DNA of 64,000 nucleotides from Halosolutus gelatinilyticus (GCF_023028105.1 NZ_CP095491.1:2852001-2916000), one strand, 5' to 3'; positions 20,623 to 56,672 are shown, counted from the first letter of the stretch. Numbers and translations are program-made. The notes: generated by a model not told the origin, from the letters alone.

Positions 20623-21044
20623 ACGAACCGGCTCGCCGTCCGGACCAATATGGTCACGTATCGTACTACAGTTATGCACGGTTACTAGTTGAACGGCCCC
20701 TCTCGACTGGCACGACGGCACGTTCGGGGTCCTCGGTGTGGCGCCTGGTACCTGCAGCGTCGGTGACGACGCGCTGGCTCCGGGTTCGGTCCGACCTCGC
20801 GTTCCTTTCGCGTATCGTTTCGACGAGTGAAACGGTTTTATCGACCGTATAGTGAACCGCCGAACCACGAAACGATCAACGTAATGAACCACTCGCATCC
20901 ACGCGCTGCAAGGAGCACCGCTGTCGGACCACCGCGGTGGCCCGTTTCGACCGATCGACGCGCGATCGGTCGAAATCGGCTCTCCGGAGGGCGAATCGGA
21001 CGGCGAGCGAGCGGTCGACCGAACACCCTGCGTCGGTGGTAACG
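20623..21044. other. intergenic region upstream of the carboxypeptidase-regulatory-like gene
   Basis: No gene recognised. It contains the old promoter area of the HxlR relic, and one bipartite promoter motif at 20836-20855 oriented towards the plus-strand gene at 21045. The rest looks like untranslated leader or decayed sequence. Confidence 0.55.
20836..20855 (+). promoter_or_regulatory. bipartite promoter motif, copy 1
   Basis: Left box TTTTATC, 5-nt spacer GACCG, right box TATAGTGA. The right box ends 189 nt before the ATG at 21045, so a long leader is implied. Confidence 0.5.
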
Positions 21045-22055
21045 ATGCGACGGAGCGCCACCGAGCAGCGTTCGAAGACGCGATCGATACAGACGAGCGT
21101 CCAAATCTTGCTCACCATCAGCGGCGTCGTGTTCCTGGTCGCCGGGTTGACGCTCGCCGCGGGCGTCGTCTCCGTCGGCGGTACCCTCGGCCCGATCACC
21201 GACCACTGGGGCGGGTCGGACTCGGGGGACGGAGCCGGGTCGGGGAACGACGACGGGGCGGATACAACTGGAGACGATTCGGGCGACGACGGTGCGGACG
21301 GTTCCGGCGGAGACAATAGCGACGGGACGGGACAAAACGGCGGAGACGGGACTGCCGACGACGGTGACGGGAATGGGACCGGCGGTGACGGGAACGAAAC
21401 CGATGCCGGAACCGGCGGTGGCGGGAACGAAACTGACGACGGGACCAGCGGTGACGGCGAAGACGGAAGTAACAACGCCAACGAATCCGACGGGAACGAA
21501 ACGCACGCGCTGACGGTGTTCGTCGAGGACGACGACGGCAACCCGATCGAGGGTGCGGCCGTCGAGGTCGATTCGCAGTCGGGATCGACCAACAACGAAG
21601 AGACCGGCCCGCGCGGCGAGGCCGCGTTCGACCTGGAAGACGGGGAGTACGCGATCAACGCGAGCGCGGACGGGTACGAAGCGGCGAACGCGACGACCGA
21701 GATCGACGGCGCGAACGAGACGGTCACCCTGACGCTCTCCGCCACCGACGACGGCGGCGACGATGGTGATGATAACGACGCTGGTAACGGCGCTTCGCCC
21801 TCCACGCTGACCGTACTCGTCGAGGGCGACAACGGTGAGCCGATCAAGAACGCCACTGTCGAAGTCAAAGAGGACGCTAGATTCTTCCCGTCGAGCGAGG
21901 AGAAAGACGTCGACAACGACGGCAAAGCCGAGTTCAAACTGGAGGACGGCAAGTACACCGTGACGGCGTCCGCGGACGGCTACGAAGAAACGGTCAAATC
22001 CGTCGAAGTCGACGGCGACGACGAGGTTATCCTCCTGACCCTCGACCAGAACTAG
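21045..22055 (+). CDS. membrane-anchored protein with two carboxypeptidase-regulatory-like domains
   Basis: 336 residues. One N-terminal membrane helix (about 17-40) anchors an outer part. Residues about 55-150 are a Gly/Asp/Asn/Thr-rich disordered linker, followed by two tandem beta-sandwich repeats of the carboxypeptidase-regulatory/PEGA type: LTVFVEDDDGNPIEGAAVEV...ASADGYE and LTVLVEGDNGEPIKNATVEV...ASADGYE. Such domains are surface-adhesive or structural; the linker has many possible N-glycosylation sites (NxT/S). It opens the surface-polysaccharide island. I chose ATG 21045, as the upstream open frame is Arg/Ser-rich. A hairpin plus T-run terminator follows the stop. Confidence 0.82.
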   Translation: MRRSATEQRSKTRSIQTSVQILLTISGVVFLVAGLTLAAGVVSVGGTLGPITDHWGGSDSGDGAGSGNDDGADTTGDDSGDDGADGSGGDNSDGTGQNGGDGTADDGDGNGTGGDGNETDAGTGGGGNETDDGTSGDGEDGSNNANESDGNETHALTVFVEDDDGNPIEGAAVEVDSQSGSTNNEETGPRGEAAFDLEDGEYAINASADGYEAANATTEIDGANETVTLTLSATDDGGDDGDDNDAGNGASPSTLTVLVEGDNGEPIKNATVEVKEDARFFPSSEEKDVDNDGKAEFKLEDGKYTVTASADGYEETVKSVEVDGDDEVILLTLDQN

Positions 22056-22056
22056 T

Positions 22057-22079
22057 AGAGCAGTCCGGGCGGCTCTTTT
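22057..22079 (+). terminator. hairpin plus T-run terminator
   Basis: AGAGC (22057-22061) pairs with GCTCT (22072-22076) and is followed by TTTT, two bases after the stop of the preceding gene. This is a plausible transcription end for that gene. Confidence 0.5.
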
Positions 22080-23024: not shown

Positions 23025-24833
23025 TCACTCGACCGTCACGCTCTTCGCGAGGTTGCGCGGCTTGTCGATCGGTCGATCGAGGAGTTTCGCCGCGTGATAG
23101 GAGAGCAACTGGAGCTGGACGTTCGCGAGCAGTCCCGCCCAGACGGGATGCGTGTCGGGGACCGAGAGGTGTGCGTCGGCGACGTCGACCAGCGGGTGGT
23201 CCTCCGGGCCGACGGCGACGATCGGCGCGCCGCGGGACTGGGCCTCGATCGCGTTCGTCTTCGTCTTTTCGTCGTCGCCGCCGGTGTAGACCGCGAACAC
23301 GGGCGACTCCTCGGTCACGAGGGCGAGCGGGCCGTGTTTGAGCTCGCCGGAGGCGAACCCTTCTGCGTGCTCGTAGGTGATCTCCTTGAACTTCAACGCG
23401 CCCTCGAGGGCCACCGAGTGGCCGAACCCGTTGCCGATGAAGAAGTACGACTCGCTGTCGAAGTACTCGCGGGCGAGCGCCTCCGCGTCGGTCGTCTCCA
23501 GGACGGTTTCGACGTGCCGGGGGAGATCCGCGAGCGCGTCGAACATGGCCTCGCGGTCCGCCGCGGGCGTCGCGTCCGGGATGTCGGCGGCGATGCGCTG
23601 GGTGAGCAGCGCGAGCGTGACCGCCTGCGAGGAGTAGGTCTTCGTTGCCGCGACGCCGACCTCCGGCCCGGCCCGGATGTAGATCGCGTCGTCCGCTTCT
23701 CGCGCGGCGGTCGAGCCGACCACGTTGGTGACGGCGAGCGATCGCGCACCGCGGCTCGTCGCTTCTCGGACCGCATCGAGCGTATCCGCCGTTTCGCCGC
23801 TCTGGGTGACCGCGACGACGAGCGTGTTCTCGTCGACCGGGCCGGACGTCACGTCGTACTCGCTCGCGCGGAGGACTTCCGTCCGGACGCCGGCCGTCCG
23901 GAGTAGCTGCCCGCCGTACATCGCCGCGTGATAGGAGGTGCCGCAGGCGACGAACTGGACGGTGTCGACGTCCGCGAACGCCCCGTCCGACAGGTCCTCG
24001 AACGCGGCGTCGCCGTCGTCGATCCGACCCTCGATCGCGTTCGAGAGGGCCGTCGGCTGGGTGTGGATCTCCTTGAGCATGTAGTGGTCGTACTCGCCCT
24101 TTCCTGCGTCTTCGGGGTCCCAGTCGACGGTGTCGACCGGACGCTCGACCGGGTTCCCCGCCAGGTCGGTGATCCGGTAGGCGTCCGGATCGAGGACGAC
24201 GAGGTCGCCGTCCTCGAGGTAGATCACGTCCTCGGTGTGATCGAGGAACGCCGGGACGTCGCTGGCGAGGAACCACTCCTCGTCGTCCAGTCCGAGGACG
24301 AGCGGCGATCCCTTTCGCGCCGCGTAGACCCGCTCTTCGCCGTCGACGATCGCGGCGATCGCGTAGCTGCCCTCGAGCGTCTCGACGGCTCGGCGGACGG
24401 CCGCCTCGGTGTCGCCGATCGTTTCTCGGTACTCGGCGATCAGGTGCGGGATGACCTCCGTGTCGGTGTCGCTTTCGAACTCGTGGCCCTTCGCCTGGAG
24501 GTCGGCCCTGAGTTCGTCGTAGTTGTCGATGACGCCGTTGTGGACGACCGCGACGTTACGCGCCATGTCCGTGTGCGGGTGGGCGTTCTCGTCGGTGGGA
24601 GGGCCGTGGGTACTCCAGCGGGTGTGGCCGATGCCCATGTTCCCGTGGGGCCGCGAGTCGAGCGTCGATTTGAGGTCGGCCACTTCGCCGGAACACTTGT
24701 GGACCTTGACGCCCGAGCCGTTCTGGACGGCGATGCCCGCCGAGTCGTAGCCGCGGTACTCGAGGTTTTCGAGCCCCGAGAGCAGCGTGTCCGCCGCTTC
24801 TCCCTGTCCGATGCGCGCGATTATCCCGCACAT
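23025..24833 (-). CDS. glmS: glutamine-fructose-6-phosphate aminotransferase (isomerizing)
   Basis: 602 residues. The start MCGII places the N-terminal nucleophile Cys2 correctly, so ATG 24833 is used instead of the ATG six codons upstream. The class II glutamine amidotransferase domain (1-220) has GHTRWSTHG, and two SIS sugar-isomerase domains follow, with ACGTSYHAA and SQSGET for sugar phosphate binding and the conserved C-terminal KPRNLAKSVTVE. It makes glucosamine-6-phosphate, the entry to UDP-GlcNAc and hence to amino-sugar-containing surface glycans. It stands beside the nucleotide-sugar dehydrogenase gene and has its own copy of the island promoter motif. Confidence 0.96.
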   Translation of the reverse strand: MCGIIARIGQGEAADTLLSGLENLEYRGYDSAGIAVQNGSGVKVHKCSGEVADLKSTLDSRPHGNMGIGHTRWSTHGPPTDENAHPHTDMARNVAVVHNGVIDNYDELRADLQAKGHEFESDTDTEVIPHLIAEYRETIGDTEAAVRRAVETLEGSYAIAAIVDGEERVYAARKGSPLVLGLDDEEWFLASDVPAFLDHTEDVIYLEDGDLVVLDPDAYRITDLAGNPVERPVDTVDWDPEDAGKGEYDHYMLKEIHTQPTALSNAIEGRIDDGDAAFEDLSDGAFADVDTVQFVACGTSYHAAMYGGQLLRTAGVRTEVLRASEYDVTSGPVDENTLVVAVTQSGETADTLDAVREATSRGARSLAVTNVVGSTAAREADDAIYIRAGPEVGVAATKTYSSQAVTLALLTQRIAADIPDATPAADREAMFDALADLPRHVETVLETTDAEALAREYFDSESYFFIGNGFGHSVALEGALKFKEITYEHAEGFASGELKHGPLALVTEESPVFAVYTGGDDEKTKTNAIEAQSRGAPIVAVGPEDHPLVDVADAHLSVPDTHPVWAGLLANVQLQLLSYHAAKLLDRPIDKPRNLAKSVTVE

Positions 24834-25055
24834 CAGCCGCTCACCTCCCATCGGACGGCGGTGATCGGTCCCGTCGCGTCACCGACGGGACGGCCCGCGA
24901 CGAACATCGCCGCGGCCGTGACGGTCGATTCAAGTCGGTTCGAGACCGCTGCCCGAAGTGCAGTGCTGTTCCGTGTCATTGGTATCACCGACCCGCGTCG
25001 GTCGTCCACGACTGGACGGGCGGGTCTCTACGCCCACCGATGCCGACAGCGTCCA

Positions 25056-25075
25056 TTACTATACGACCGGTAAGA
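25056..25075 (-). promoter_or_regulatory. bipartite promoter motif, copy 2
   Basis: On the minus strand: TCTTACC, spacer GGTCG, TATAGTAA. It points to glmS, with 222 nt between the right box and the start codon, which implies a long leader or an additional nearer promoter. Confidence 0.55.
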
Positions 25076-25518: not shown

Positions 25519-26190
25519 TCAGGGAAGCGGGTTTTCGACGTCGTCCGACCGGTCTTCGTCCGACGATCCGTCGCGCAAGATGATGACGTTCTCGCGGCCG
25601 ACCGATCGTTTCTCGATCGTGCCGTCCGCGCTCATCTGCGAGCAGATCCGACTCACTTTCGACTTCGACCACCCGGTTTCGTCCGCAATCTGGTGCTGAC
25701 GAATGCGTCCCTGATTCGCGACGAGCAGGCGGACTACCCTCCCTTCGTCGCTCAGGAGTTCGGGTGGGGTCTCGGGTGAGAGATAGTGTTCGTACGCCCG
25801 GTGGTCGTGGGTGCGTGACCGTTCCGTTTCGTCCGTTGTGTTTGATTCGTCCGATTCGTCCGATTCGTTCGCGTCGGTCGTCGGCGACCGGAGCGGTGCG
25901 ATTCCGGCGCCGCGTTCCGACAACGCTTCAGCCACTCGAAGCCCGACGAGCCAGCTGATTAGTAGGAACAGCACCGCGATCAGGGCCGTCTCCCAGATCG
26001 ACGACGCGCGAAGCAGTTGCAGCCAGGACAACGGGCCCCCGGGTCGATCGTCGATCGCCGGGAAAATCGCCCTCGCCGTGATCGCGTGCGCGCCGTGATC
26101 GGCGATCGCAGCCGGAGCCGTCTCGATCGAGCGGGTGCTACGAACCGCCTCCAACGGGATTCCGACTCCGATCTGGGAAGTGGACGCCAT
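25519..26190 (-). CDS. membrane-anchored winged-helix regulator
   Basis: 223 residues. An outer N-terminal segment (1-65), one membrane helix (about 68-88), an acidic Ser/Asp/Glu-rich linker (105-130) and a cytoplasmic winged-helix domain (about 145-205: LLSDEGRVVRLLVANQGRIRQHQIADETGWSKSKVSRICSQM...IEKRSVGRENVIIL). This is a membrane-tethered transcription factor of the MarR/IclR-like fold (DUF7343 type in my reading). It is divergent from the nucleotide-sugar dehydrogenase gene and has its own copy of the island promoter motif. A GTTTAG-N7-CTAAAC palindrome lies between the two genes, so it is a prime candidate regulator of the island and of itself (inference). Confidence 0.82.
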   Translation of the reverse strand: MASTSQIGVGIPLEAVRSTRSIETAPAAIADHGAHAITARAIFPAIDDRPGGPLSWLQLLRASSIWETALIAVLFLLISWLVGLRVAEALSERGAGIAPLRSPTTDANESDESDESNTTDETERSRTHDHRAYEHYLSPETPPELLSDEGRVVRLLVANQGRIRQHQIADETGWSKSKVSRICSQMSADGTIEKRSVGRENVIILRDGSSDEDRSDDVENPLP

Positions 26191-26278: not shown

Positions 26279-26298
26279 TCATTATAGGTTCGTATAGT
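26279..26298 (-). promoter_or_regulatory. bipartite promoter motif, copy 3
   Basis: On the minus strand: ACTATAC, spacer GAACC, TATAATGA. The right box ends 88 nt before the start of the membrane-anchored regulator gene (26190). The left box is the most divergent of the set. Confidence 0.5.
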
Positions 26299-26301: not shown

Positions 26302-26320
26302 GTTTAGCACCTTTCTAAAC
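26302..26320. promoter_or_regulatory. operator-like palindrome GTTTAG-N7-CTAAAC
   Basis: Perfect 6-bp inverted repeat with a 7-bp centre, directly abutting motif copy 3 on its upstream side. The 19-bp size and central gap fit a dimeric winged-helix protein site. The half-site resembles the left box (GTTTAAC) of the island promoter motif. Confidence 0.5.
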
Positions 26321-26411: not shown

Positions 26412-26431
26412 GTTTATCCGCGGTATAGTAA
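26412..26431 (+). promoter_or_regulatory. bipartite promoter motif, copy 4
   Basis: GTTTATC, spacer CGCGG, TATAGTAA, followed by ACGG; one of the best copies. The right box ends 116 nt before the ATG at 26548, so the transcript has a leader containing a GC-rich hairpin. Confidence 0.6.
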
Positions 26432-26547: not shown

Positions 26548-27948
26548 ATGACCACGACACTCAGCGACACGGAAACGCGAGCGGACGAGCGAGCGAACGA
26601 CGAGCGCGACGAGGGGGTGTCCCGCTCGGAGATCTCTTACGAGCACGCCGCCGAGTCGTCCGCGCGCGAAGCGACGATCTGCGTCGTCGGCCTGGGCTAC
26701 GTCGGCCTCCCGCTCGCCGTCGGGTTCGCGCAGTCGGACTACCGCGTGATCGGGTACGACGTCGACGAGTCGACGGTCGAACGGCTGCAGGCGGGATTCG
26801 ACACGACGGGTGACCTCTCGAACGAAGCGGTTCGAAACGACGACATCTCCTACACCACGGACGCGAGCGAGATCGCCGACGCGGATTACGTCATCGTCGC
26901 CGTGCCGACGCCGATCGACGACGCCGATCGGCCGGACCTGAGCTACGTTGAGAGCGCCGCGACGACCGTCGGATCGAAGATGAAGCCGGGAACGACTGTC
27001 GTTCTCGAGTCGACCGTCTACCCGGGAACGACTCGAGAAGCCCTCGTCCCGGCGCTCGAAGCGGCCTCCGAGCTCACCGCCGGCGAGGATTTCTTCGTCG
27101 GCTACTCGCCGGAGCGGGCCACGCCGGGCGATCCCGACCACGGCCTGGCGGACGTCGTTAAAGTCGTCAGCGCGCAGAACGAGACGGTGCTCGACGACGT
27201 GGCGACGCTGTACGAGTCGATCGTTGACGCGGGCGTTCACCGCGCCCCGTCGATCGAAGTCGCCGAAGCGTGCAAGGTCGTCGAGAACACCCAGCGCGAC
27301 GTCAACATCGCGTTCGTCAACGAGCTGTCGATGGCGCTCGAACGGATGGGCGTCGACGCGGAGGCGGTCCTCGAAGCGGCGGGTACGAAGTGGAACTTCC
27401 ACGACTACCGTCCGGGACTGGTCGGCGGGCACTGCATCCCGGTCGATCCGTACTTCTTCGCGTACCGATCGGCCCGCGACGGGTACGAACCCGAACTCGT
27501 GCGCACGAGCCGGCAGGTCAATGAGTCGGTCCCGGACCACGTCGCGAAGCTGACGATCAAGGCCCTCAACGAGTGCAACAAGACCCTGCGCGAGAGTCGC
27601 GTGCTGGTCATGGGGCTGGCGTACAAGCCGGGCGTCGGCGACATCCGCAGTTCGAAGGTCTCGAACGTCGTCGACTCGCTTCAGGAGTACGACGTCGACG
27701 TCGAGGGCTTCGACCCGTTCGCGGACGACGAGGCGGTTCGGGACGCGTTCGATCTCGACGTCCAGGAGACCCTCACCTTCGAAGGCGTCGACGCGATCCT
27801 GCTCGCGACGCCGCACGATGAGTTCGAACAGCTCGATCTCGAGGCCGTGACCGCCGAGCTCGAAGCCGATCCCGCGCTGGTCGACGTGACCGGCGCCCTC
27901 GACGAAGCGGCGGCCGTCGAGGCTGGATTCGTCTACCGGAGGTTGTGA
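26548..27948 (+). CDS. nucleotide-sugar (UDP-HexNAc-type) 6-dehydrogenase
   Basis: 466 residues of the UDP-glucose/GDP-mannose dehydrogenase family. An acidic 40-residue extension precedes the NAD-binding motif GLGYVG (48-53). The catalytic Cys is Cys296 in GGHCIPVDPYF, and ENTQRDVNIAFVNELSMAL plus EAAGTKWNFHDYRPG are features of the TviB/WbpO branch, which oxidises UDP-GlcNAc or UDP-GalNAc to the uronic acid. It would supply an acidic N-acetylhexosaminuronic sugar for a surface glycan, downstream of GlmS. It heads a four-gene plus-strand unit with the DUF354, GT4 and GT-C-like genes. Confidence 0.92.
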   Translation: MTTTLSDTETRADERANDERDEGVSRSEISYEHAAESSAREATICVVGLGYVGLPLAVGFAQSDYRVIGYDVDESTVERLQAGFDTTGDLSNEAVRNDDISYTTDASEIADADYVIVAVPTPIDDADRPDLSYVESAATTVGSKMKPGTTVVLESTVYPGTTREALVPALEAASELTAGEDFFVGYSPERATPGDPDHGLADVVKVVSAQNETVLDDVATLYESIVDAGVHRAPSIEVAEACKVVENTQRDVNIAFVNELSMALERMGVDAEAVLEAAGTKWNFHDYRPGLVGGHCIPVDPYFFAYRSARDGYEPELVRTSRQVNESVPDHVAKLTIKALNECNKTLRESRVLVMGLAYKPGVGDIRSSKVSNVVDSLQEYDVDVEGFDPFADDEAVRDAFDLDVQETLTFEGVDAILLATPHDEFEQLDLEAVTAELEADPALVDVTGALDEAAAVEAGFVYRRL

Positions 27949-32685: not shown

Positions 32686-33675
32686 CTACTCGACCACGAT
32701 CGGGAGGTGAACGGCGCGGTACGCGTTTTCGGTGCTGGGTTCGGCCGGCGGTTCGTCCTCGTAGAGGAGCAGGGTCAGCCGGAGGTCCTCGCCCTCCATC
32801 GTCGGCGTGATTTCGAGCGTCTGCCGGTGCGTCTCGCCGTCGGGCACGGTCGCCGACTGCCGGTCCAGTTCGTTCGCCTCGTGAACGGTCACGTTATCCC
32901 CCTCGTAGCTCACCCGTTCGAGCAAGACCACGGTCGTGTACGTCCGCTCCTTGTGTTCCCGGTTCGTGATCGTCGCCTCCAGTTCTTGCGTCTCACCGGC
33001 GCTGTACGTCGAGTTGTAGATCGTCTCGACATCCCCGGTGACCTCCTCCGTGTTTATCGAGAACTCGGTGAATCCGTCGTGCTGTGGCGGGTTGGCGACT
33101 GCGAAGCCGCCGCTCACGGCCAGCAGAACCAACCCGATCGCGATCGCCGCGTTGTACGGCCGCCGATTCGTCCGATCGTATGCCGTCGCTCGGCTCCGGG
33201 TGAAAAACGGTGACACTGATGAAAGCGTCGGCGCGAATCGGCGGGCTGGCGGACACCGATGGCGAGAACCGATCGCGACGAGCGCGAGCGCGATCGTGAG
33301 AATCGCAAGTCCGGGGAGCACCGTTTCGACCGCTATACCCCTGGGGGTCACGGTCGCGAAAAGGGTGATCGCCGGAACGAGGGTAAGACTGAAGACGACT
33401 GACAGGACGAGTCGCTCGATCAGCGGTGGACCGCCGCTCACCAGCAGGGGGTTTCCGAGCCCGGTTTTCTCTTCGTCGAAGGACTGGTAATCGTCGTTCG
33501 GTTCGTCCGGGAAGAGGGCCGAGACGAGCGCGTACCCGGGGAAAAAGAGGACGAGCGGGAGTACCAGCAGGATCCGTCCGACCCCTCCGATACCGGTAAA
33601 CACGCCAAGCGTGATGGCGCCCGTGACCGCGATGACGATCGCCTGATCGAGAAACCACCAGTTGGAATCGCTCAT
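32686..33675 (-). CDS. DUF1616 family membrane protein
   Basis: 329 residues. Four to five membrane helices (about 8-28, 33-53, 85-107, 113-133, 175-195) surround FFPGYALVSALFPD, the motif typical of DUF1616, and a C-terminal outer beta domain (200-329) includes YNSTYSAGETQELEATITNREH. DUF1616 proteins are recurrent in archaeal surface-glycan and sorting-enzyme loci; function is not known. A bipartite motif copy sits 27 nt upstream of the ATG, which fixes the start and points to a leaderless transcript. Confidence 0.87.
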   Translation of the reverse strand: MSDSNWWFLDQAIVIAVTGAITLGVFTGIGGVGRILLVLPLVLFFPGYALVSALFPDEPNDDYQSFDEEKTGLGNPLLVSGGPPLIERLVLSVVFSLTLVPAITLFATVTPRGIAVETVLPGLAILTIALALVAIGSRHRCPPARRFAPTLSSVSPFFTRSRATAYDRTNRRPYNAAIAIGLVLLAVSGGFAVANPPQHDGFTEFSINTEEVTGDVETIYNSTYSAGETQELEATITNREHKERTYTTVVLLERVSYEGDNVTVHEANELDRQSATVPDGETHRQTLEITPTMEGEDLRLTLLLYEDEPPAEPSTENAYRAVHLPIVVE

Positions 33676-34053
33676 TTGTACGCACTCGTGGCTGACAGCG
33701 GTTTATTATCGCCCGAGTAAGCCCCGTCTGACGGGGGTCGTTCGGTGTCCGTCCGCCGCCAAATTATCACAATTTCGATACCGATTCTGCTTAAGACGCT
33801 TTCGGAAGTTCTGAACGATTGCACCGAGCGGAACGAACGCGAAACGTCGACATGGATTCCCCCCTGAATCGGGGAAATAAATTTGATCAAGTATTTCTGA
33901 ACATCCCGATATATGGATTTTCACGCCCTATACTGCTGTTTTAAAAGTAACAAAAACGTTCACGGTGCCGGTAAATTCGGCTAAAATAAATCGATCAGAA
34001 ATGCACGGTTTCAACACTTTATTACTGGCCTATGGATAGAGAAGACTGAGGCG
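33676..34053. other. AT-rich divergent intergenic region
   Basis: 378 bases, visibly the most AT-rich non-coding stretch of the window (for example around 33880-34020). It contains motif copy 5 for the DUF1616 gene and, at the right end, TTTATTAC (34017-34024), a TATA-like element about 30 nt upstream of the ATG at 34054. No coding sequence is apparent. Confidence 0.6.
33703..33722 (-). promoter_or_regulatory. bipartite promoter motif, copy 5
   Basis: On the minus strand: GCTTACT, spacer CGGGC, GATAATAA. The right box ends 27 nt before the DUF1616 ATG, at the normal TATA position for a leaderless transcript. Confidence 0.65.
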
Positions 34054-34644
34054 ATGAAAGCGATACATATCAGCTCTGAGGAACATTGCGAGCATGGTAT
34101 GGACGACGAACCCGTCCGTTCTTCCGAGGAGCCCGACGTTTCGAAAGACGAAATCTTCCATCTCTTGCAAAATGAACGGCGTCGGATGGTCCTCCAGTAT
34201 CTTCGCGGAACGGACGGGCCTGTACGCATGCGCGACGTCGCAGAGCAGGTCGCGGCGTGGGAACACGATACGACCGTTGAAGAGCTCACGTCGAAACAAC
34301 GCCAGCGCGTCTACATCCCGCTGTACCAGTCCCACCTCTCGAAGCTCGACGAGGCGGGCGTGATCGACTATCAGCAGGATCGCGGCATCGTCGAGCGGAA
34401 GCCGCTCGCCGATCAGATCGACAAATACCTCGAATTGGAACCGGAGGCCGACTCGGCGGACGAAACGAGCGCAGACGACGGAGCCTGGGGCGATTACTAC
34501 ATCGGTGCGACGGTCGTCGGCTACGCGGTGTTGATCGGCGCAGTGATGGAGCTCCCGTTCGTTTCCCTCGTTTCGGGTATCGGCCTGAGCGCGCTGATCC
34601 TGTTCCTCTTTACGGTACTGACCATCAGCTGGAACATCAACTGA
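34054..34644 (+). CDS. membrane-anchored winged-helix protein (DUF7344 type)
   Basis: 196 residues. The winged-helix domain (about 28-125: DEIFHLLQNERRRMVLQYLRGTDGPVRMRDVAEQVAAWEHDTTVEELTSKQRQRVYIPLYQSHLSKLDEAGVIDYQQDRGIVE) is the DUF7344 type common in haloarchaea. It is followed by an acidic linker and two C-terminal membrane helices (about 148-168 and 171-192). It is a putative membrane-linked transcription regulator. ATG 34054 follows TGAGGCG, a possible ribosome site; ATG 34099 is an alternative. It faces a second gene of the same architecture across 27 nt. Confidence 0.82.
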   Translation: MKAIHISSEEHCEHGMDDEPVRSSEEPDVSKDEIFHLLQNERRRMVLQYLRGTDGPVRMRDVAEQVAAWEHDTTVEELTSKQRQRVYIPLYQSHLSKLDEAGVIDYQQDRGIVERKPLADQIDKYLELEPEADSADETSADDGAWGDYYIGATVVGYAVLIGAVMELPFVSLVSGIGLSALILFLFTVLTISWNIN

Positions 34645-37154: not shown

Positions 37155-37174
37155 TTACTATAGGATCGTTAAGC
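37155..37174 (-). promoter_or_regulatory. bipartite promoter motif, copy 6
   Basis: On the minus strand: GCTTAAC, spacer GATCC, TATAGTAA. It points to the asparagine-synthase-like gene, 109 nt before its ATG. Confidence 0.58.
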
Positions 37175-37230: not shown

Positions 37231-37250
37231 GCCTATCGGACCCATAATAA
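37231..37250 (+). promoter_or_regulatory. bipartite promoter motif, copy 7
   Basis: GCCTATC, spacer GGACC, CATAATAA. The right box ends 30 nt before the ATG of the NodB-like lipoprotein gene at 37281. With copy 6 it forms a back-to-back pair. Confidence 0.6.
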
Positions 37251-43220: not shown

Positions 43221-44462
43221 TCAGCGGGTCGAGAGCGTGATCTCCGCGGTATCCGTCAGCTCCGCATCGTCGGTGACGCGCAGCACGACCGTGTGGTCGC
43301 CGGACGCGCCGATCGTCACCTCGATCGTCTTTCCGGTCTCGTCGAACGAGCCGTCACCGTCGACGTCCCACTCGTAAGCGACGATCTCGCCGTCGGGAGC
43401 GCACGAGCACGAGGCGTCGAGCGTGACGGTCTGTCCCCGTTCGAGCGCGCGCTCGTCGGCGCCTTCCGGGACCGTTTTGAGCTTCGCGACCGGCGGTTCG
43501 CGGTTCGGCGCGTCGCCGGCGTCTCCATCGCCGCCCTCGGTGGGCTCGTCGCCGTCCGGGCCATCGTCCGCGGATTCGTCCGGTTTTTCGTTCTCCGGCT
43601 CCTCGTCGACGGGTTCGTCGGGGACGTGGCCGTTATCCTGGTCGTCGAGCATGAGGTCGTCCTTGAGGAGACGCTCGACGATCGCCGAGTGCCACTGCAC
43701 GCGGGTTTCGAGGTCGATGTCGGTGGAAAGGGTCTCCGCGAGAAACGCGTCCGCACCGAGATCGCGGGCGGCCTTGTGGACGAGCAGTCCCATCGGGTCG
43801 GTGTCGGGATGGGAGAACGGGCCGGTCTGGAACGCCAGGTCGGGATCGTCCACGTAGTTGCGGGTGACGTATTCGGCGGCGTTCGCTGCGTCGGCGGCCG
43901 CGTCGCCGTCGGAGTGGAAGATCGCCTGTCCGACGCCGTCGACCGGATCGCCCGCGTAGATCCCCGTCGACTCGTGGAGGTCGATGAGGACGTCGGGATC
44001 GTAGTCGGCGACGACGTTCCAGATGGCGCGTGCGAGTTCCGTCTCGGGCTCGCTTCCTTCGGTGAACTGCCGGTTGAGATCGACGCCGTCGTCGTCGGTC
44101 CGGGTTCGGCGCTCGATCGCGACGGCGTTCGCCTCGGGGATCGTGACCAGGGTCCCGGCCTTGATCGTCCAGTTGGCGATCTGGTCGGCCGCGGTGTAGC
44201 CCGCGACTTCGTTGCCGTGCACGCCGCCGACCACGACCGCCGTCGGGCCGTCTGTCGGCGCCTCGGCCACGTATACCGTCGTCTCTTCGTCCGTACCGGT
44301 CCTGATCGTGAACGAGTCGCGAACGACGTCTCCGGTGTCGGCCGATTTGCCATCCGTCTCGTCGCCAGACTGGTCGTCGGCCATCGCAACGCCTGCGCTC
44401 GCGAGCGCACAGCCGGTTGCGGCGGTCAGTACAGATCGTCGTGAGAGCAACTCTCGCTCCAT
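43221..44462 (-). CDS. exported zinc aspartoacylase/M14-like enzyme with PKD domain
   Basis: 413 residues. A Tat-like signal (SRRSVLTAATGCALASAGVAMA, about 8-28) leads to a succinylglutamate desuccinylase/aspartoacylase-type catalytic domain (50-270): zinc ligands His82 and Glu85 in VHGNEVAGY, Arg in VDLNRQF, third ligand His in LIDLHESTGIY, and a general-base Glu in FLAETLS. A Glu/Asp-rich linker follows, then a PKD domain (about 335-413: ASCSCAPDGEIVAYEWDVDGDGSFDETG). It would hydrolyse an amide or peptide bond outside the cell, perhaps in surface glycopeptide turnover. Motif copy 8 lies 29 nt upstream. Confidence 0.85.
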   Translation of the reverse strand: MERELLSRRSVLTAATGCALASAGVAMADDQSGDETDGKSADTGDVVRDSFTIRTGTDEETTVYVAEAPTDGPTAVVVGGVHGNEVAGYTAADQIANWTIKAGTLVTIPEANAVAIERRTRTDDDGVDLNRQFTEGSEPETELARAIWNVVADYDPDVLIDLHESTGIYAGDPVDGVGQAIFHSDGDAAADAANAAEYVTRNYVDDPDLAFQTGPFSHPDTDPMGLLVHKAARDLGADAFLAETLSTDIDLETRVQWHSAIVERLLKDDLMLDDQDNGHVPDEPVDEEPENEKPDESADDGPDGDEPTEGGDGDAGDAPNREPPVAKLKTVPEGADERALERGQTVTLDASCSCAPDGEIVAYEWDVDGDGSFDETGKTIEVTIGASGDHTVVLRVTDDAELTDTAEITLSTR

Positions 44463-44491: not shown

Positions 44492-44511
44492 TTACTATCT
44501 TGACTGTAATG
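44492..44511 (-). promoter_or_regulatory. bipartite promoter motif, copy 8
   Basis: On the minus strand: CATTACA, spacer GTCAA, GATAGTAA. The right box ends 29 nt before the ATG at 44462, at the TATA position. Confidence 0.55.
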
Positions 44512-46064: not shown

Positions 46065-47042
46065 TCACGATCGCCCGAGCGCGGATCGGCCGAGGAGTAC
46101 TGAGACGGCGAGAACGCCGATCGTCGCGACGATCGGCAGCGGGCGACGGCGAATGCCCGTCCCGGTGGTCCAGCAGAGGCCGGGGACGTGCCGCGGCGAC
46201 ACGGACGCCTTCCGGAGGTGCCACGCGCCCCGGAGGAGTCGACCCTCGGCGGCGTACCGCTTCGCGAGGAGGAGTTCGTGTGCCGATCGAATCTCGTACC
46301 CCATCGCCTCGAAGCGTTCGACCTCGTCCTCGTACGCCGAGAGGTACTGGCGGCTCGCGCTTTCGATCACGGCCGCCGGCGGATGTCCGGTCTCCTCGCG
46401 GCTGACGAGCGCCTCGTCGACGTAGGCGAGCTTGCCGTGTTCGAGCACGCGCAGACAGAATTCCGGATCCTGGAACCGATCGAGCGTCTCGTCGAAGCCG
46501 CCGGCCTCCGCCGCGACGCTCGTCCGGACGAGCAGCGTCGACCCGGCGCCCGGCTGAACGTTGTCCGCGAGGATCTCGCCGATCAGTTCCTCGTCGCCTT
46601 CCCGCGTGGGCGTGTCGTCTCCGCGGGCGAGCAGGGTGGCGGCGGTTCCCCGGATCGCACCGGTCGTCCCCGAGAGGTCGTACGCCGTGTCGCAGTAGAC
46701 GCCGACCCACTCGTCCGATCGATTCTCGAGGACCGCAAGTTGCCGCTCGAGTTTCTCCGGGTGCCACTCGTCGTCCGAGTCGAGGAAGGCGACGTACTCC
46801 CCGCGGGCGCGTTCGATTCCCGTGTTTCGGGCGACGTTCGCACCCCGGTTGGTCGCGTGGACGACGGGCCGAACCCGCGGATCGTCGTACTCCGACAGCA
46901 CCGACGGTGTGTCGTCGGTCGAGCCGTCGTCGACGACGATCACCTCGAGGTCGTCGATCGTCTGGTCGAGCGCGCTGTCGATCGCGCGAGAAAGCGTTGC
47001 CGCTCTGTTGTACGTCGGGATAACGACGCTGACGCGAGTCAT
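46065..47042 (-). CDS. GT2-family glycosyltransferase
   Basis: 325 residues, GT-A fold. The N-terminus VVIPTYNRAATLSRAIDSALDQTIDDLEVIVVDDGSTDDT and the metal-binding DxD region AFLDSDDEWHPEKL are classical. A single hydrophobic helix near the C-terminus (about 298-318) may tether it to the membrane. It adds a sugar from an NDP donor on the cytoplasmic side. Motif copy 11 lies 27 nt upstream. It precedes the ATP-grasp gene on the same strand, but each has its own promoter motif. Confidence 0.93.
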   Translation of the reverse strand: MTRVSVVIPTYNRAATLSRAIDSALDQTIDDLEVIVVDDGSTDDTPSVLSEYDDPRVRPVVHATNRGANVARNTGIERARGEYVAFLDSDDEWHPEKLERQLAVLENRSDEWVGVYCDTAYDLSGTTGAIRGTAATLLARGDDTPTREGDEELIGEILADNVQPGAGSTLLVRTSVAAEAGGFDETLDRFQDPEFCLRVLEHGKLAYVDEALVSREETGHPPAAVIESASRQYLSAYEDEVERFEAMGYEIRSAHELLLAKRYAAEGRLLRGAWHLRKASVSPRHVPGLCWTTGTGIRRRPLPIVATIGVLAVSVLLGRSALGRS

Positions 47043-47069: not shown

Positions 47070-47089
47070 TTATTATCGAGTGGGTAAAC
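47070..47089 (-). promoter_or_regulatory. bipartite promoter motif, copy 11
   Basis: On the minus strand: GTTTACC, spacer CACTC, GATAATAA. The right box ends 27 nt before the ATG of the GT2 gene; one of the best matches. Confidence 0.65.
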
Positions 47090-47169: not shown

Positions 47170-47189
47170 GTCTAACAGCTGTATAAGAA
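47170..47189 (+). promoter_or_regulatory. bipartite promoter motif, copy 12
   Basis: GTCTAAC, spacer AGCTG, TATAAGAA. The right box ends 27 nt before the ATG at 47217. With copy 11 it forms a back-to-back divergent pair. Confidence 0.62.
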
Positions 47190-47216: not shown

Positions 47217-48506
47217 ATGACGAACCGAAACCGACGATCGTTCGTGACCGCGGTAGCGGCGACCGGAACGCTCGGCCTCGCCGGGTGCCTGTCGAGCGTT
47301 CGCGAGTGGTCCGGTATGGACGACGATCCGACGCCGTCTCAGCCGGATTCGGACGACGGGAACGACGGCGGCGACGGGAACGACGGCGGCGACGGGGGCG
47401 ACGTGCCGGGCCTTCCCGGCGAGGCGATCGACTCCTTCGAGGCCCTGGACGACTGGGTGTCGATGATCGACGCCGGACAGTTCGAAGCCACGACAGACGA
47501 CCCGTACGCCGGCTCGCAGTCCGCTCGGCTCACCGCGCCCGAGGAGTCGGAGTACGCGGGCGTCTACCAGACGTACACCGACGGGATCGACCTGCGCAAG
47601 AAGAACCTCTCGCTGGCTGTCAGCTACACCGGACGCGAGCAGCTGCACCTCAGACTCGAACTATTCGCGCCGAACTCGCGCAACGTCCACACGCTGAGTC
47701 GAACGCTCACCGGACCGACGGATCGGTGGGTCCGGGTCGACTTCGGCACCGACGACATCGAGACCCAGCCCGACCTCTCCGACGTGCGAGAGATCCGACT
47801 GAGCGCCCGCCGTCGGGGCGATCCGACCGGCTCGATCGACTGTCGGGTCGACGATCTCCGGGCCGTCGATCGGCCCGAGACGGGAGCGGTGCTGTTGTTG
47901 TTCGACGGAACGCTTGAGAGTCACCACGCTCGCGCGTTCGAGCACATGCAGGAATACGGCTTTGCGGGCGTCGAGGCCGTCATCCCCGAGGCCGTCGGCG
48001 AGGGTGGCCGGCTCACGATCGACAAACTCGGCGACCTGAACGACGCCGGCTGGGACCTGGCGGCCCGCCCGCGAACGGGGTCGCAGTTCATCCACGAGTT
48101 TTCCCCAGAGCAACAGGAGGGAATGATCAGACGGACGAAAGCGTACCTCGAGAACCGCGGCTTCGCCGACGGCGCACGCCACTTCGTCACGCCACGGAAC
48201 GTACTCGGATCGAATACCCTCGACCTCGTCAGGGAGTACCACGAGCAGGCGTTCCGGTACGGCGGCGCCCCGAACGGGCTCCCGCTCACCGACCCGCACA
48301 ACCTGGGGTTCTTCTCGGGCGCCGCCGGCGAGACGACCAAGCGGTACGTCGACCACGCCGCCGCGTACGGGCAGCTCGCGGTGTTGCATTTCGAACACAT
48401 CGGCGACAGCGGCCTGTCCGAGCGCGCGTTCGAGGACCTGCTCGCGTACATCGATGCGCAGGACGTGAACGTCGTCACCGCGTCGGACCTGCTGGAGGAG
48501 AACTGA
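47217..48506 (+). CDS. exported NodB-like lipoprotein with lost catalytic residues
   Basis: 429 residues. Tat signal plus lipobox (NRRSFVTAVAA...LAGC), an acidic Gly/Asp linker, a beta-sandwich domain (about 75-220: SFEALDDWVSMIDAGQFEATTDDPYAGSQSARL) and a domain matching the NodB-like part of the protein at 37281 in order and length. The catalytic positions differ: SWDDG is replaced by LLFDGTLES and HGTHD by ARPRTGSQ. It is therefore probably a non-enzymatic glycan-binding paralogue. Its TGA overlaps the ATG of the GT2 gene, so they are co-translated. Confidence 0.8.
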   Translation: MTNRNRRSFVTAVAATGTLGLAGCLSSVREWSGMDDDPTPSQPDSDDGNDGGDGNDGGDGGDVPGLPGEAIDSFEALDDWVSMIDAGQFEATTDDPYAGSQSARLTAPEESEYAGVYQTYTDGIDLRKKNLSLAVSYTGREQLHLRLELFAPNSRNVHTLSRTLTGPTDRWVRVDFGTDDIETQPDLSDVREIRLSARRRGDPTGSIDCRVDDLRAVDRPETGAVLLLFDGTLESHHARAFEHMQEYGFAGVEAVIPEAVGEGGRLTIDKLGDLNDAGWDLAARPRTGSQFIHEFSPEQQEGMIRRTKAYLENRGFADGARHFVTPRNVLGSNTLDLVREYHEQAFRYGGAPNGLPLTDPHNLGFFSGAAGETTKRYVDHAAAYGQLAVLHFEHIGDSGLSERAFEDLLAYIDAQDVNVVTASDLLEEN

Positions 48507-50314: not shown

Positions 50315-51952
50315 TCAGGGCGGGATATACTGGAGGTCGGGACTCAGGATGCCGAGAGCGAGGCCGGAGACGAGCAGGGACAGTCCCGCGAGAGCCAGCA
50401 GGCTCTGTAACCAGTTCCGTCCCGGCGCGTCGGCCCCCACACCTTCGACGCGTTGCTGGATCGCCCCCGCCTTCGTCCCGATCGGATCCGGGAACGAGGC
50501 CAGGACCTCGAACGGTTCGGCCGGATCCAGCGCGCCCGTCAGCAGCGCGAAGACGAGGAAGATCGCGAACCCGCTCGGCGGGACGAGGCCGAGCGCGAGC
50601 CAGGGGTTCGCGACGGCCGCCGAGAGGGCGACGATCGGCACGGCCGCGAGAACGGTCGTCAGCGCGACCCGACCGAGACGGGCGTCCGCGAGCGGGTCGA
50701 ACCCGACGCGGCGGGCGCTCCAGCAGTGGAAGACGAACATCGTGCCGTAACCGACGCTGGTCGCGACGGCGGCGCCGTGCATTCCGTACCGGGGGATGAG
50801 CACCGCGTTGAGCACGACGTTGATCAGCGCTGCGCTTCCGGTCGCCGCGATCGGGTACCGGAGCGTACCGTTACCCTGCGAGACTGCCAGGATCGGTCGA
50901 GCGAGCGCGAATCCGAGCGCTCCGGGGAGCAACAACAGGAGCGGTTCGATCGCCGGGATGGCCTCCTCGCCGAAGTAGATCGGCACGGCGGCGTCCGCGA
51001 GCGCCCCGAGCCCGACCGCCATGACGGCCGTCAGCAGGAACGTAAAGCGGGTCGCCCTGGACGCGAGTTCGGAGATCTTCCGGCGGCGGTTTTGGGACCA
51101 CAGCTCCGACGTCGAGTGGACGAACACCGTCTGGATCGCCAGCGGGACGAACCAGAGGAACTCGGCCAGCGTGAGCGCCGCCTTGTAGTTCCCCACGGCC
51201 GCGCTCTCCCTGAACCGCTGGAGCATCACGATGTCGATGTGGTAGAGCGACATCAGCAGGAACACGAGCGCGATGTTCAACGAGTTGAACGTGAGCATCT
51301 GCCGTCGGGGGAACCGCTCCGGCGGTCGGCGGAACACGCAGGACAGCGACACCCGGCGATGCACGAGCGCCAGCCCGGCGACGGTGACGAGCAGACTCGC
51401 GACGAGGTGACCCGCGAGCACTCCCATCACGCCAACGCCGAGCGACGCCAGCGGGATCGCGATCGCGACGAAGCCGACCTTGTCGAGGATCTTCAGCGGT
51501 TCCGAGTACCGCTCGAGACCGAATCCCATCAGCGTCTTCCTGGCGTAGTCGCGAAACTGCGCCGTGATCACGAGCGCGGCCAAGACGTAGAAGTAGATCG
51601 TCACGTCGGCCCCGAACGCGCGAGCGACGAGCCCGGACCAGGTCGCAAGCACCAGCACGAGCGCGCCGGCGATCGCGAGGAGGACCGCCAGTCGGAAGTA
51701 GAAGCCGACGACGTGATCGCTCCAGTTGGCGACGCCACGATCCTCCGCCAGGAACTTGCGGACGCCGTCGGTGATGCCGGAACTGACGAAGATCATGTAG
51801 ATGGCGAACACCGACAAGAGGAACGCGTACCGGCCGAACTCCGATGCGCCGAGAAATCGGTAGAGCAGCGGCGTCGAGAGCGTGGTCAGCGCAAGGACGA
51901 CTATCTTCGCACTGACGACCGAGACGACGCCGCTCGCAATGCTCCTGTTCAT
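50315..51952 (-). CDS. Wzx-like polysaccharide flippase
   Basis: 545 residues with about 14 membrane helices of the MOP superfamily. The N-terminal VVSAKIVVLALTTLSTPLLYRFLGASEFGRYAFLLSVFAIY is typical of oligosaccharide flippases, and NVVLNAVLIPRYGMHGAAVATSVGYG is the conserved late motif. It moves polyprenyl-linked glycan units across the membrane, so the island assembles its glycan on a lipid carrier inside and exports it. It lies alone, with motif copy 13 upstream; no Wzy-like polymerase is obvious in the window. Confidence 0.92.
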   Translation of the reverse strand: MNRSIASGVVSVVSAKIVVLALTTLSTPLLYRFLGASEFGRYAFLLSVFAIYMIFVSSGITDGVRKFLAEDRGVANWSDHVVGFYFRLAVLLAIAGALVLVLATWSGLVARAFGADVTIYFYVLAALVITAQFRDYARKTLMGFGLERYSEPLKILDKVGFVAIAIPLASLGVGVMGVLAGHLVASLLVTVAGLALVHRRVSLSCVFRRPPERFPRRQMLTFNSLNIALVFLLMSLYHIDIVMLQRFRESAAVGNYKAALTLAEFLWFVPLAIQTVFVHSTSELWSQNRRRKISELASRATRFTFLLTAVMAVGLGALADAAVPIYFGEEAIPAIEPLLLLLPGALGFALARPILAVSQGNGTLRYPIAATGSAALINVVLNAVLIPRYGMHGAAVATSVGYGTMFVFHCWSARRVGFDPLADARLGRVALTTVLAAVPIVALSAAVANPWLALGLVPPSGFAIFLVFALLTGALDPAEPFEVLASFPDPIGTKAGAIQQRVEGVGADAPGRNWLQSLLALAGLSLLVSGLALGILSPDLQYIPP

Positions 51953-52055: not shown

Positions 52056-52075
52056 TTATTATACGGCTGTTAAAC
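52056..52075 (-). promoter_or_regulatory. bipartite promoter motif, copy 13
   Basis: On the minus strand: GTTTAAC, spacer AGCCG, TATAATAA, the consensus form. It points to the flippase gene, 103 nt before its ATG. Confidence 0.65.
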
Positions 52076-54058: not shown

Positions 54059-54721
54059 TTAGCTGTAGTGGTCCGGCGAGTGGCCGTTTTCGATCGTCGC
54101 GGCGATCAGCTCCGAGACGGCCCGTCGAAGGTGCTGGGAGACCGCCGAATCGGAGATGTCGAGCCGTTCGGCGAGTTCGTCCTGTGTGATCGTCCGAGGA
54201 ACGTCGTAGTAGCCGGCCGCGTACGCCATCGTGAGGACCTCTCTCTGTCGATCGGTCAGGAAGTAGGTCTCGTCGTCGGAAACCGTGGAGTCGTACAGTT
54301 GCGCGATGCGAAACGAGACGCCGCGGTCGCGACACCGCGATCGAAACGCGGTCAGCGCGTCTCTATCCGGAAGGTACACGCGGACGGTCCACCTCCCCTG
54401 TCCGCCCGTGATCGAAAAGGCGAACAGGCCGTCCGCCGCGCACCGATCGGGAACGATCTCGAGGTCAGTCTCGACCGCGAATCGGTAGATCGCCCGGTGT
54501 TCGAACGTGGCGATGCGGGTCGGTTCCGAGACGGTGGGATCGGCGTCCATCGCGTCCTCGAGGCGTGCGAACTCGTCGCCGAACGCCGAGACGAACTGCA
54601 GGCGCCGATCGTTCCCCCGCGTCCCGTACTCGTACGTGAGCGTCGTCCCGGGATGGCGCTCCATCGTCGGAACCAGCGGAAGGTCGTCGTGGACGAGGTG
54701 GACTTCTGCGATAAATCCCAT
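54059..54721 (-). CDS. Bat-type HTH-10 transcriptional regulator
   Basis: 220 residues from ATG 54721. The N-terminal domain (GFIAEVHLVHDDLPLVPTMERHPGTTLTYEYG...) is the GAF/BAT-like sensor seen in bacterio-opsin-activator homologues, and the C-terminal HTH-10 domain has LTDRQREVLTMAYAAGYYDVPRTITQDELAERLDISDSAVSQHLRRAVSELI. I prefer this ATG to the one at 54760, because the TATA-like TATAAATA (54760-54767) would overlap a start there. It is a one-component sensor-regulator; the motif copy in its own promoter suggests it is part of the island regulon. Confidence 0.88.
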   Translation of the reverse strand: MGFIAEVHLVHDDLPLVPTMERHPGTTLTYEYGTRGNDRRLQFVSAFGDEFARLEDAMDADPTVSEPTRIATFEHRAIYRFAVETDLEIVPDRCAADGLFAFSITGGQGRWTVRVYLPDRDALTAFRSRCRDRGVSFRIAQLYDSTVSDDETYFLTDRQREVLTMAYAAGYYDVPRTITQDELAERLDISDSAVSQHLRRAVSELIAATIENGHSPDHYS

Positions 54722-54759
54722 CGAGCTGTCGGTGTGGGACCGCTCCGAGCGGCGGCCCA

Positions 54760-54779
54760 TATTTATACAGCGAGTAACG
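54760..54779 (-). promoter_or_regulatory. bipartite promoter motif, copy 14
   Basis: On the minus strand: CGTTACT, spacer CGCTG, TATAAATA. The right box ends 38 nt before the chosen ATG of the Bat-type gene. Confidence 0.55.
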
Positions 54780-54845
54780 ACGGTTGCACCGCACGAACCG
54801 CCGGCCGGCGACTCGCTGCGCGCCGTCGTGCGTCGGATCGTCGGC

Positions 54846-56534
54846 TCACTGCATGTAGCCGAGATCGGCCAATCGTTCGGTCACGCCCTCGCCCGCCTCG
54901 GGTCGTTCGTCGCCGTCCTGATCGTACGCCGGGTAGGACGTCGATCCGACGGAGTCGACGACGGGGACGACGCTGCCGTCCATGCGATCGCTGTAGGGGA
55001 CGCCCATCGCGGCCATGATCGTCGGTGCGACGTCGAAGATGTGGGTCCGATCGATCGCGGCGTCCTCGTCGATCCCCTCGCCCGTCGCGACGAAGACCCC
55101 GTCGAGCTTGTGATTCCAGGGTTCGGCCGGCCCGAAGTAGTCGCCGTCGCTTGGGCCGACCTGCTCCGTAAGGGCGTGATCGAAGTCCTTCGGGATCGTG
55201 ACGATGTCGACGGTGTGATCGCTCCGATCGCCGTGGAAATACCGCTCTCTCGGCGCGACCGTCTCGAAGAACGGCTCGCCGTCGGGCGTTTCGACCCCCT
55301 GCAGCGCCCTGATCAGCTCCTCTCGCAGTTGCTCGTACTCGTCGGGCGGGACGACGCCGTCGGGGTCTCGGCCCTGGAGGTTGATCCGAACGCCGAGTTC
55401 GGTGCGGGCGCGGACGTACGCCTTCGATCGTTCGAAATCGACCTGCTCGTTCGCCGTCCGCGAGACGCCGCCGGGGGCGTACGCCCTCGCGACGTCGGCC
55501 AGGCCGACTCGTTCGAGGGCGGTCCTGATTCGGCTCGCGGTCACGCCGAACTGGGCGGCGACGGACGCCGCGCGGGCGACCGTTCCCGGCTCCCAGGTGT
55601 CGCACTCCTCGCCCTCGCGGAGCCGTCGGCGCATCGGCGTCCACGACGGCATCCCCTTGCCGCCGATGGTCGTCTCGAGGTAGCCCTCATCGCGGAGGAA
55701 CTCGTTGATCCGGAACTCGTACCCCTCGTACGGGCCCATTCCGTGGTCGCTCACGAGGAAGACGCGGTCCGGATCGCACGCCTCCAGGATCGCGGCGATC
55801 TGGTCGTCGGTCTCCTCGTAGACCAGTTCGACCGCGCCTTCGTCGCCGTCGAACTCGTGGAAGACGGTGTCCGTCTTCTGGAACTGGACGAACCCGAAGT
55901 CGGGATCGAACTCGCCGACGAGGTAGCGAAACGCCTCGCCGCGCATCCGGATCAGGCGCCGATACTCCGCGAGTTTCTCGGCGTCGGACAGCGAGTCGTC
56001 GTCGCGGGTGTATCTCGGGTAGACGCGGTAGTCGCCGATCGCGTCGCGAACCTCGTCGAGAAGGCCTTCGGGGTGGCAAAGCGGGTCCTCGGGGCCGAGG
56101 AAGCCGGGGATCACCGCGCCGTCGAACTCGTCTGGCGGGTGAGTCACGGGTGCGTTGACCACGACGCTCGAACGATCGTGCCGGTCCAGCAGCGTCCACA
56201 GCGGGTGTTCGTGGACGTCCTCGTTGCTCGTCACGTGCCAGTCGTAGCCGTCGTAGCCGACGAAACCGATCGCGCCGTGTTTCCCGGGGTTGACGCCGGT
56301 GTAGATCGACGGCCAGGCGCTGGGCGTCCACGGCGGAATCTGCGATTCGAGCGGTGCGGTGACGCCCTCGGAGCAGAGTCGCTCGATGGTCGGTATTCGA
56401 TCGGCCTCGAACAGTCGCTCGAAGACCGGCAGGCAGCCGGCGTCGATCCCGATGAGAAGCGTCTCCACGCTGGTCGTTTCGTTCGCGGTACTCCTCGTCG
56501 GTGCGTCGTCGTCTCGATGGAACGTCCGGGTCAT
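54846..56534 (-). CDS. type I phosphodiesterase/nucleotide-pyrophosphatase-like metalloenzyme
   Basis: 562 residues of the alkaline-phosphatase-fold superfamily. The first metal site is in LLIGIDAGCLPVFERLF, the nucleophile region is PPWTPSAWPSIYTGVNPGKHGAIGF, and the second metal motif is LVSDHGMGPYEGYEFRINEFLRDEGYLE; late ligands lie in DRTHIFDVAPTIMAAMGVP. No signal peptide is visible, so it acts in the cytoplasm at this start. Homologues of this shape recur in archaeal and bacterial polysaccharide loci and may transfer or hydrolyse phospho-groups on glycans. Motif copy 15 lies upstream. Confidence 0.88.
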   Translation of the reverse strand: MTRTFHRDDDAPTRSTANETTSVETLLIGIDAGCLPVFERLFEADRIPTIERLCSEGVTAPLESQIPPWTPSAWPSIYTGVNPGKHGAIGFVGYDGYDWHVTSNEDVHEHPLWTLLDRHDRSSVVVNAPVTHPPDEFDGAVIPGFLGPEDPLCHPEGLLDEVRDAIGDYRVYPRYTRDDDSLSDAEKLAEYRRLIRMRGEAFRYLVGEFDPDFGFVQFQKTDTVFHEFDGDEGAVELVYEETDDQIAAILEACDPDRVFLVSDHGMGPYEGYEFRINEFLRDEGYLETTIGGKGMPSWTPMRRRLREGEECDTWEPGTVARAASVAAQFGVTASRIRTALERVGLADVARAYAPGGVSRTANEQVDFERSKAYVRARTELGVRINLQGRDPDGVVPPDEYEQLREELIRALQGVETPDGEPFFETVAPRERYFHGDRSDHTVDIVTIPKDFDHALTEQVGPSDGDYFGPAEPWNHKLDGVFVATGEGIDEDAAIDRTHIFDVAPTIMAAMGVPYSDRMDGSVVPVVDSVGSTSYPAYDQDGDERPEAGEGVTERLADLGYMQ

Positions 56535-56652
56535 CGGTGCAGTAGGTCTCGTTCGTGGCTAGGGGTTCCGATCGACCGCTTCCGAGACGTCCTCGGCGGT
56601 CTCGTTCGGTCTAACACGGTACTCTATCTTCCCGCGAGGGAGCCGATAGACT

Positions 56653-56672
56653 TCATTATCGTTCCGTTAAAC
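56653..56672 (-). promoter_or_regulatory. bipartite promoter motif, copy 15
   Basis: On the minus strand: GTTTAAC, spacer GGAAC, GATAATGA. It points to the phosphodiesterase-like gene, 118 nt before its ATG, and is the right-most clear copy. Confidence 0.6.

Follow-up and report, generated by a model that had tools for sequence, protein, structure and literature searches.

Are the genes of the surface-glycan island of Halosolutus gelatinilyticus switched together, and if so, through which sequence element and by which protein? The island spans about 36 kb, less than 1% of the 4.76 Mb genome (G000), and lies within the analysed window, a stretch of 64,000 nucleotides (nt) (NZ_CP095491.1, here C1:2852001-2916000). 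According to Pfam, its genes encode UDP-sugar dehydrogenase, GlmS, glycosyltransferases, a flippase, deacetylase-like, ATP-grasp and DUF1616 proteins, phosphodiesterase, and regulators; three of the latter, DUF7343, DUF7344, and HTH_10, are winged-helix or helix-turn-helix (HTH) candidates. An original prediction, made from the sequence of the window, had listed 15 copies of a two-box promoter motif within this island. Overall, our comparison of sequences points to a dedicated promoter class serving one surface-polysaccharide regulon, and somewhat favours DUF7343 as the protein that would read the left box of the motif.

Definition of the motif and its concentration in the island

The consensus refined from relatives was GYTTANC-N5-BATARTRAW, consisting of a left box and a right box. 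With no more than one mismatch allowed, 9 of its 12 matches in the whole genome fell inside the island. The pattern as first predicted gave a similar picture, with all four exact matches and three of four one-mismatch matches inside the island; its two-mismatch matches were at the background level (40 in total versus 34 for the reversed pattern). The concentration of the motif in the island is far beyond chance. Equal frequency at random genes was not seen in the genome scan, in support of a regulon dedicated to the glycan island. One-mismatch sites located elsewhere in the genome (290510, 974469, and 3582815) revealed no coherent function and were probably chance matches.

The sites were scored with two weight matrices, matrix A built from 221 nonredundant sites and matrix B from 83 sites of other haloarchaeal families only, the latter being independent of the host genome and its family. 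Sites were thinned by flank similarity but remain not fully independent. Matrix A recovered ten solid sites in the window, each of at least 20 bits; with matrix B, nine window sites scored at least 18 bits and the tenth 15 bits. No site of at least 14 bits was detected with matrix B in the window flanks, in ten shuffles, in the reversed island, or in 60 kb of other genome DNA. The absence of sites from the flanking housekeeping genes was thus borne out. All 15 listed places resembled the motif to a degree (10–15 of 15 consensus positions; four perfect, eleven on the minus strand), but the matrices backed only ten of them. The fixed 5-nt gap between the boxes proved to be real: within the island, spacing 5 gave 9 left-plus-right pairs versus 0–1 at other spacings. 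A description of this motif was not found in a literature search.

Occurrence of the motif in relatives

Of 125 genomes of the family, 79 carried the exact motif, and control searches gave very few hits. Among relatives, the sequence of the N5 spacer drifts and both boxes are kept. The motif was not confined to this family: in other families it likewise formed clusters in islands of this kind. It appears to represent a cis-regulatory code common to the Natrinema/Natrialba family, Haloferax, Halobacterium, and others. In 77 loci picked by DUF7344 alone, without regard to the motif, left and right boxes were paired at spacing 5 in 158 instances, whereas 30 other spacings averaged about 7. Only 0–1 such pairs were present in paralogue loci from these genera (L200, L204, and L205).

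Six genomes with DUF7344 and no exact motif (G003, G050, G078, G088, G120, and G122) were exceptions in appearance only, since near-exact sites were present in them. Exact sites in G004, G005, and G007, which have no island orthologues, were single and probably unrelated. In G122 the island exists as two segments separated by about 200 kb (C1:290–310 kb and 490–510 kb). Motif-like sites are retained in each segment, a further argument for action in trans.

Probable promoter anatomy

Among 251 nonredundant sites, only two were located within coding sequence and 217 were aimed at a gene on the same strand. Gene starts were those called by a simple codon-usage caller. Start codons were most frequent 25–28 nt past the right box, and a further rise followed at 90–130 nt. 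Beyond the boxes, conservation was observed at positions that had not been selected for, namely W/M at 36–37 and Y/R at 46–47, counted from the start of the left box, and it also held in 84 leadered sites without a nearby start codon. This pattern is the one expected of a haloarchaeal −10 element and an initiator, and it puts the probable transcription start near position 47, 26–27 nt past the right box. Such a start would give either leaderless messages or leaders of approximately 75–180 nt, and would place the right box at about −34 to −26 and the left box at about −46 to −40. The predicted TATA position of the right box is supported in this way, the transcript starts being inferred from sequence conservation. 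A Shine-Dalgarno-like sequence was found in 22 of the 84 leadered sites versus 11 of 82, a difference too weak to use.

In 698 ordinary genes of the same loci, an A-rich transcription factor B (TFB) recognition element (BRE) was observed at −35 to −32 and a TATA box at −29 to −26 relative to the ATG, in agreement with published haloarchaeal promoters (PMC4983044). At the motif promoters this standard pair was absent, and BATARTRAW occupied those positions. The right box would therefore replace the normal BRE plus TATA box, and the left box would lie just upstream of the BRE, apparently a full helical turn from the core promoter, in the region bound by archaeal activators. The −10 position, the initiator distance, and leaderless use are shared with the standard promoter (BRE CGAAA, TATA TTWT, WW at −10; PMC4983044); the island promoters differ in that BATARTRAW fills the positions of both BRE and TATA, with another specific box farther upstream. 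We strongly infer that the motif functions as a promoter. Such a core promoter class would score poorly under standard BRE/TATA models. These data also support the earlier suggestion that the left box is a separate element read by a specific factor.

Genes downstream of the motif

The genes downstream of the motif were surveyed at 154 nonredundant sites in loci other than the window. They encoded family 2 glycosyltransferases (GT2; 20), flippases (15), asparagine-synthase-like proteins (12), phosphodiesterases (12), UDP-sugar dehydrogenases (10), DUF1616 proteins (8), and GlmS (7), as well as GlmM-, nucleotidyltransferase-, aminotransferase-, and acyltransferase-like proteins judged by eye from sequence. 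Their common function, as far as it can be predicted, would be to make polysaccharide. The motif stands just before most gene starts of the island, in relatives as well, so all genes of the sugar coat are probably switched together.

Several exact copies of the motif located away from the islands were found 25–32 nt before genes of secreted polysaccharide-deacetylase-like proteins, the distance being 26–32 nt in L031, L044, L093, and L099. Two extra-island deacetylase-like proteins aligned with the product of the window's gene starting at 47217 with 31–37% identity, and two matched Polysacc_deac_1. Unlinked sites of the same function point to a trans-acting regulator and speak against a repeat bound to the locus. 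A trans-acting factor encoded in the island is likely.

Regulator genes were rare downstream of the motif (5 of the 154 sites). The regulon had been predicted to include several regulators, which was not supported in the window: only the DUF7343 gene, with a different arrangement of the boxes, and a weak motif-like site (54760–54779, minus strand; 11.5 bits, matrix B only) before the HTH_10 gene were found.

Candidate regulators

The DUF7343 gene (25519–26190, minus strand; Pfam PF24034, 2.5e-26) encodes a protein with one hydrophobic helix, recognised by eye from the sequence, followed by a predicted C-terminal MarR-like winged helix; its match to MarR_2 (26.8 bits) was just under the cut-off of 27.0. 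The DUF7344 gene (34096–34644, plus strand, start uncertain; PF24035, 2.3e-20) encodes a protein predicted to have a winged helix at its N-terminus and two membrane helices at its C-terminus. Its AlphaFold model had a predicted local distance difference test (pLDDT) score above 90 over most of residues 20–110, and winged-helix matches in PDB were obtained, none of them at E < 0.001. Sequence comparison revealed no solved-structure relatives of either protein. Both DUF7343 and DUF7344 look membrane-anchored, judging by their predicted helices, and no paper mentioning either was found in the literature search. Tail to tail with DUF7344 lies a gene (34672–35214, minus strand) for another, degenerate protein of the DUF7344 type, likewise with two membrane helices at its C-terminus; this neighbour is kept beside DUF7344 in relatives.

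In the spacing test on the 77 loci, side peaks at spacings 15 and 27 pointed to the promoter of the DUF7343 gene. Here the left half-site occurs as a palindrome, GYTTA-N9-TAARC, with its edge 15–16 nt from the right box. In the window, the palindrome occupies 26302–26320 (GTTTAGAAAGGTGCTAAAC on the minus strand), and the right box TATAATGA (26279–26286, minus strand) lies 15 nt from it and 88 nt before the gene. The place at 26279 had been listed among the 15 copies; it has a good right box, but the left box is missing at spacing 5, and the site belongs to this other arrangement. The near half-site of the palindrome stands one helical turn farther out than the ordinary left box. Across island loci, the palindrome had 48 nonredundant copies, all outside coding sequence, and its N9 spacing was found 85 times (strand-doubled) versus 0–8 at other spacings, N12 excepted. 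The N12 peak was rejected as independent evidence of a palindrome, since it represents the ordinary motif with the TAA supplied by the TATA part.

A search of the 125 family genomes for the composite GYTTA-N9-TAARC-N15-BATARTRA, tolerating one mismatch, gave 70 hits in 66 genomes. Of these hits, 67 preceded the island DUF7343 gene in the same orientation; the palindrome was conserved before this gene in 66 of the 77 family genomes having it. Away from this gene, only three isolated one-mismatch hits were detected. The bare palindrome occurs at just three places in the host genome. We propose DUF7343 as the binder on the basis of the conserved palindrome before its gene, which was the best discriminator found, though not proof, and which makes this assignment modestly probable. 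In relatives, GYTTA-N9-TAARC was also observed approximately 270–330 nt before genes of beta-helix proteins and glmS, with no close right box (L109:1548, L122:11431, L123:5189, L134:16437, L182:11358, L185:16388, L194:11288, and L197:17835).

Proposed mechanism and alternatives

In the proposed scheme, a regulator with sequence specificity would bind the left box GYTTANC, one turn of the helix away from the core promoter on its upstream side. This regulator would most likely be an activator, aiding the TATA-binding protein (TBP) and TFB onto a poor BRE; activation is the simplest reading and a reasonably probable one. DUF7343, predicted to be membrane-anchored and MarR-like and encoded in the island, would bind the half-sites, autoregulate, and switch the island, coupling the state of the membrane or envelope to coat synthesis. 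The half-site would be used in two layouts: at coat genes as a single copy separated by 5 nt from a dedicated core promoter, and at the regulator's own gene as a palindrome placed farther out. More tentatively, a membrane-tethered DUF7343, perhaps paired with DUF7344, may read one half-site in both layouts as an order-wide switch. If true, the archaeal envelope would report directly to the genes building its sugar coat.

MarR-like proteins are often repressors. The left box may accordingly be a repressor operator, with the island silent until the repressor leaves, and a single dimer could cover both the left and right boxes. This alternative to activation is rather unlikely: the position of the left box, upstream of the BRE, is that used by known haloarchaeal activators (PMC4390858), and the palindrome of the DUF7343 promoter stands yet another helical turn away from the core.

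Several observations weigh against DUF7343 as the binder and bear on DUF7344, which could act alone or with DUF7343. Over the 125 family genomes, DUF7344 orthologues tracked the motif slightly better than those of DUF7343 (76/6/3/40 and 73/4/6/42, respectively, for both/regulator only/motif only/neither). The island of G099 has the motif and DUF7344, and DUF7343 was not found nearby. Outside the host's family, the palindrome does not consistently accompany DUF7343. That motif and regulator occur together is itself partly a reflection of their linkage in one island; in other families, the two genes are usually about 2 kb apart beside a motif cluster. DUF7344 is further favoured by its winged-helix model and by its position next to the site of the 33703 type, which adjoins the DUF7344 gene in nearly all relatives. 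Its own promoter in the window showed no left-box palindrome, however, and it belongs to a large haloarchaeal family of paralogues (PF24035; 42 matches in the host genome and up to 59 in relatives; among 14 control genomes, matched in Haloferax volcanii only). With so many paralogues, the fold alone says little about the motif site, and DUF7344 is an unlikely binder, although less so than the candidates below.

The island HTH_10/BAT protein (gene at 54059–54760, minus strand, identified by Pfam) sits between two of the most conserved sites and is encoded in most motif genomes; nevertheless, its island orthologue is missing in the motif-bearing G086, G087, G090–G092, G008, and G099, so that it is dispensable for the motif and was rejected on its genome distribution. 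In the histidine kinase/response regulator pair, the response regulator (138 aa) has no DNA-binding domain by Pfam; a regulator of either kind is very improbable. Least probable is the originally suggested dedicated TFB paralogue, for which the left box would be an atypical BRE: multiple TFBs exist in haloarchaea (PMC4390858) and the core box is unusual, but no TFB gene was found among the island genes scanned by Pfam, the left box is separated by the N5 spacer from the TATA position and lies upstream of the BRE contacted by TFB, and the left half-site also serves as a distant palindrome.

Comparison with known systems

Provided that DUF7343 is the regulator, the island resembles the GvpE-dependent gas vesicle promoters (PMC4390858) in its island-encoded candidate activator, in an element adjoining the BRE, and in the presence of this element at the regulator's own promoter. 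As in upstream activating sequences (UAS) of the GvpE type, the left box was found directly upstream of the BRE at a fixed distance from TATA (spacing 5) and at co-functional genes. The GvpE element differs in its length of 20 nt, comprising two 8-nt parts with 4 nt between them, and GvpE itself resembles a leucine-zipper protein; in the island, a 7-nt half-site keeps a constant spacing to an unusual core box, and the palindromic form is limited to the regulator gene. The GvpE regulon itself can be dismissed, since sequence, length, and targets all differ.

ArnR and ArnR1 of Sulfolobus acidocaldarius (PMC6396743) are membrane-bound one-component HTH activators of surface structures. DUF7344, by sequence and AlphaFold model, is similar to ArnR in having an N-terminal HTH and two C-terminal membrane helices, an analogy of layout without a claim of homology. 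ArnR differs in belonging to another phylum, in its archaellum and pili targets, and in its boxes TCGAC-N5-GTCGA (PMC6396743). By analogy, the motif would work like these known activator-dependent promoters; what appears new is the unusual core box and a regulator family for which we found no description. The acidic exopolysaccharide cluster HAH_1661-1667 of Haloarcula hispanica (PMC5467301) is alike in its content of glycosyltransferase, polysaccharide-biosynthesis, and sulfatase genes; the paper describes no regulator or promoter element and calls the networks unknown. The present analysis yields a cis-regulatory code, a target list, and two uncharacterised candidate regulators for surface polysaccharide, and motif-carrying Natrinema and Haloferax species could be used for direct tests.

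Individual sites in the window

In the ten solid sites, the distance from the end of the right box to the start codon was 27–30 nt in four and 103–204 nt in six. The four close sites (scores for matrices A/B) precede the DUF1616 gene 32686–33675 (site 33703–33722, minus strand, leaderless type, 27 nt; 26.7/24.9 bits), a polysaccharide deacetylase-like gene 37281–38621 (37231–37250, plus, 30 nt; 23.9/24.3 bits), a GT2 gene 46065–47042 (47070–47089, minus, exact match, 27 nt; 31.3/29.7 bits), and a secreted deacetylase-like gene 47217–48506 (47170–47189, plus, 27 nt; 22.4/19.6 bits).

The distant sites precede a CarboxypepD_reg/Big_1 surface protein gene 21045–22055 (20836–20855, plus; 20.4/15.0 bits), glmS 23025–24851 (25056–25075, minus, 204 nt; 22.8/21.4 bits), a UDP-sugar dehydrogenase gene 26548–27948 (26412–26431, plus, 116 nt; 28.4/23.4 bits), an asparagine-synthase-like gene 35354–37045 (37155–37174, minus, exact match, 109 nt; 30.2/28.2 bits), a flippase gene 50315–51952 (52056–52075, minus, exact in the originally predicted pattern, 103 nt; 30.2/29.2 bits), and a phosphodiesterase-like gene 54846–56534 (56653–56672, minus, exact match, 118 nt; 28.3/24.6 bits). 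The sites at 52056 and 56653 recur across many family genomes.

The minus-strand places at 43074 and 45973 were not supported as motif copies by the matrices. A weak motif-like site (44492–44511, minus strand; 10.4/12.0 bits) lies 29 nt before an AspA/PKD gene (43221–44462). The region 33750–34050, upstream of the DUF7344 gene and without the two-box motif, is unusually AT-rich for the genome and may contain other control elements.

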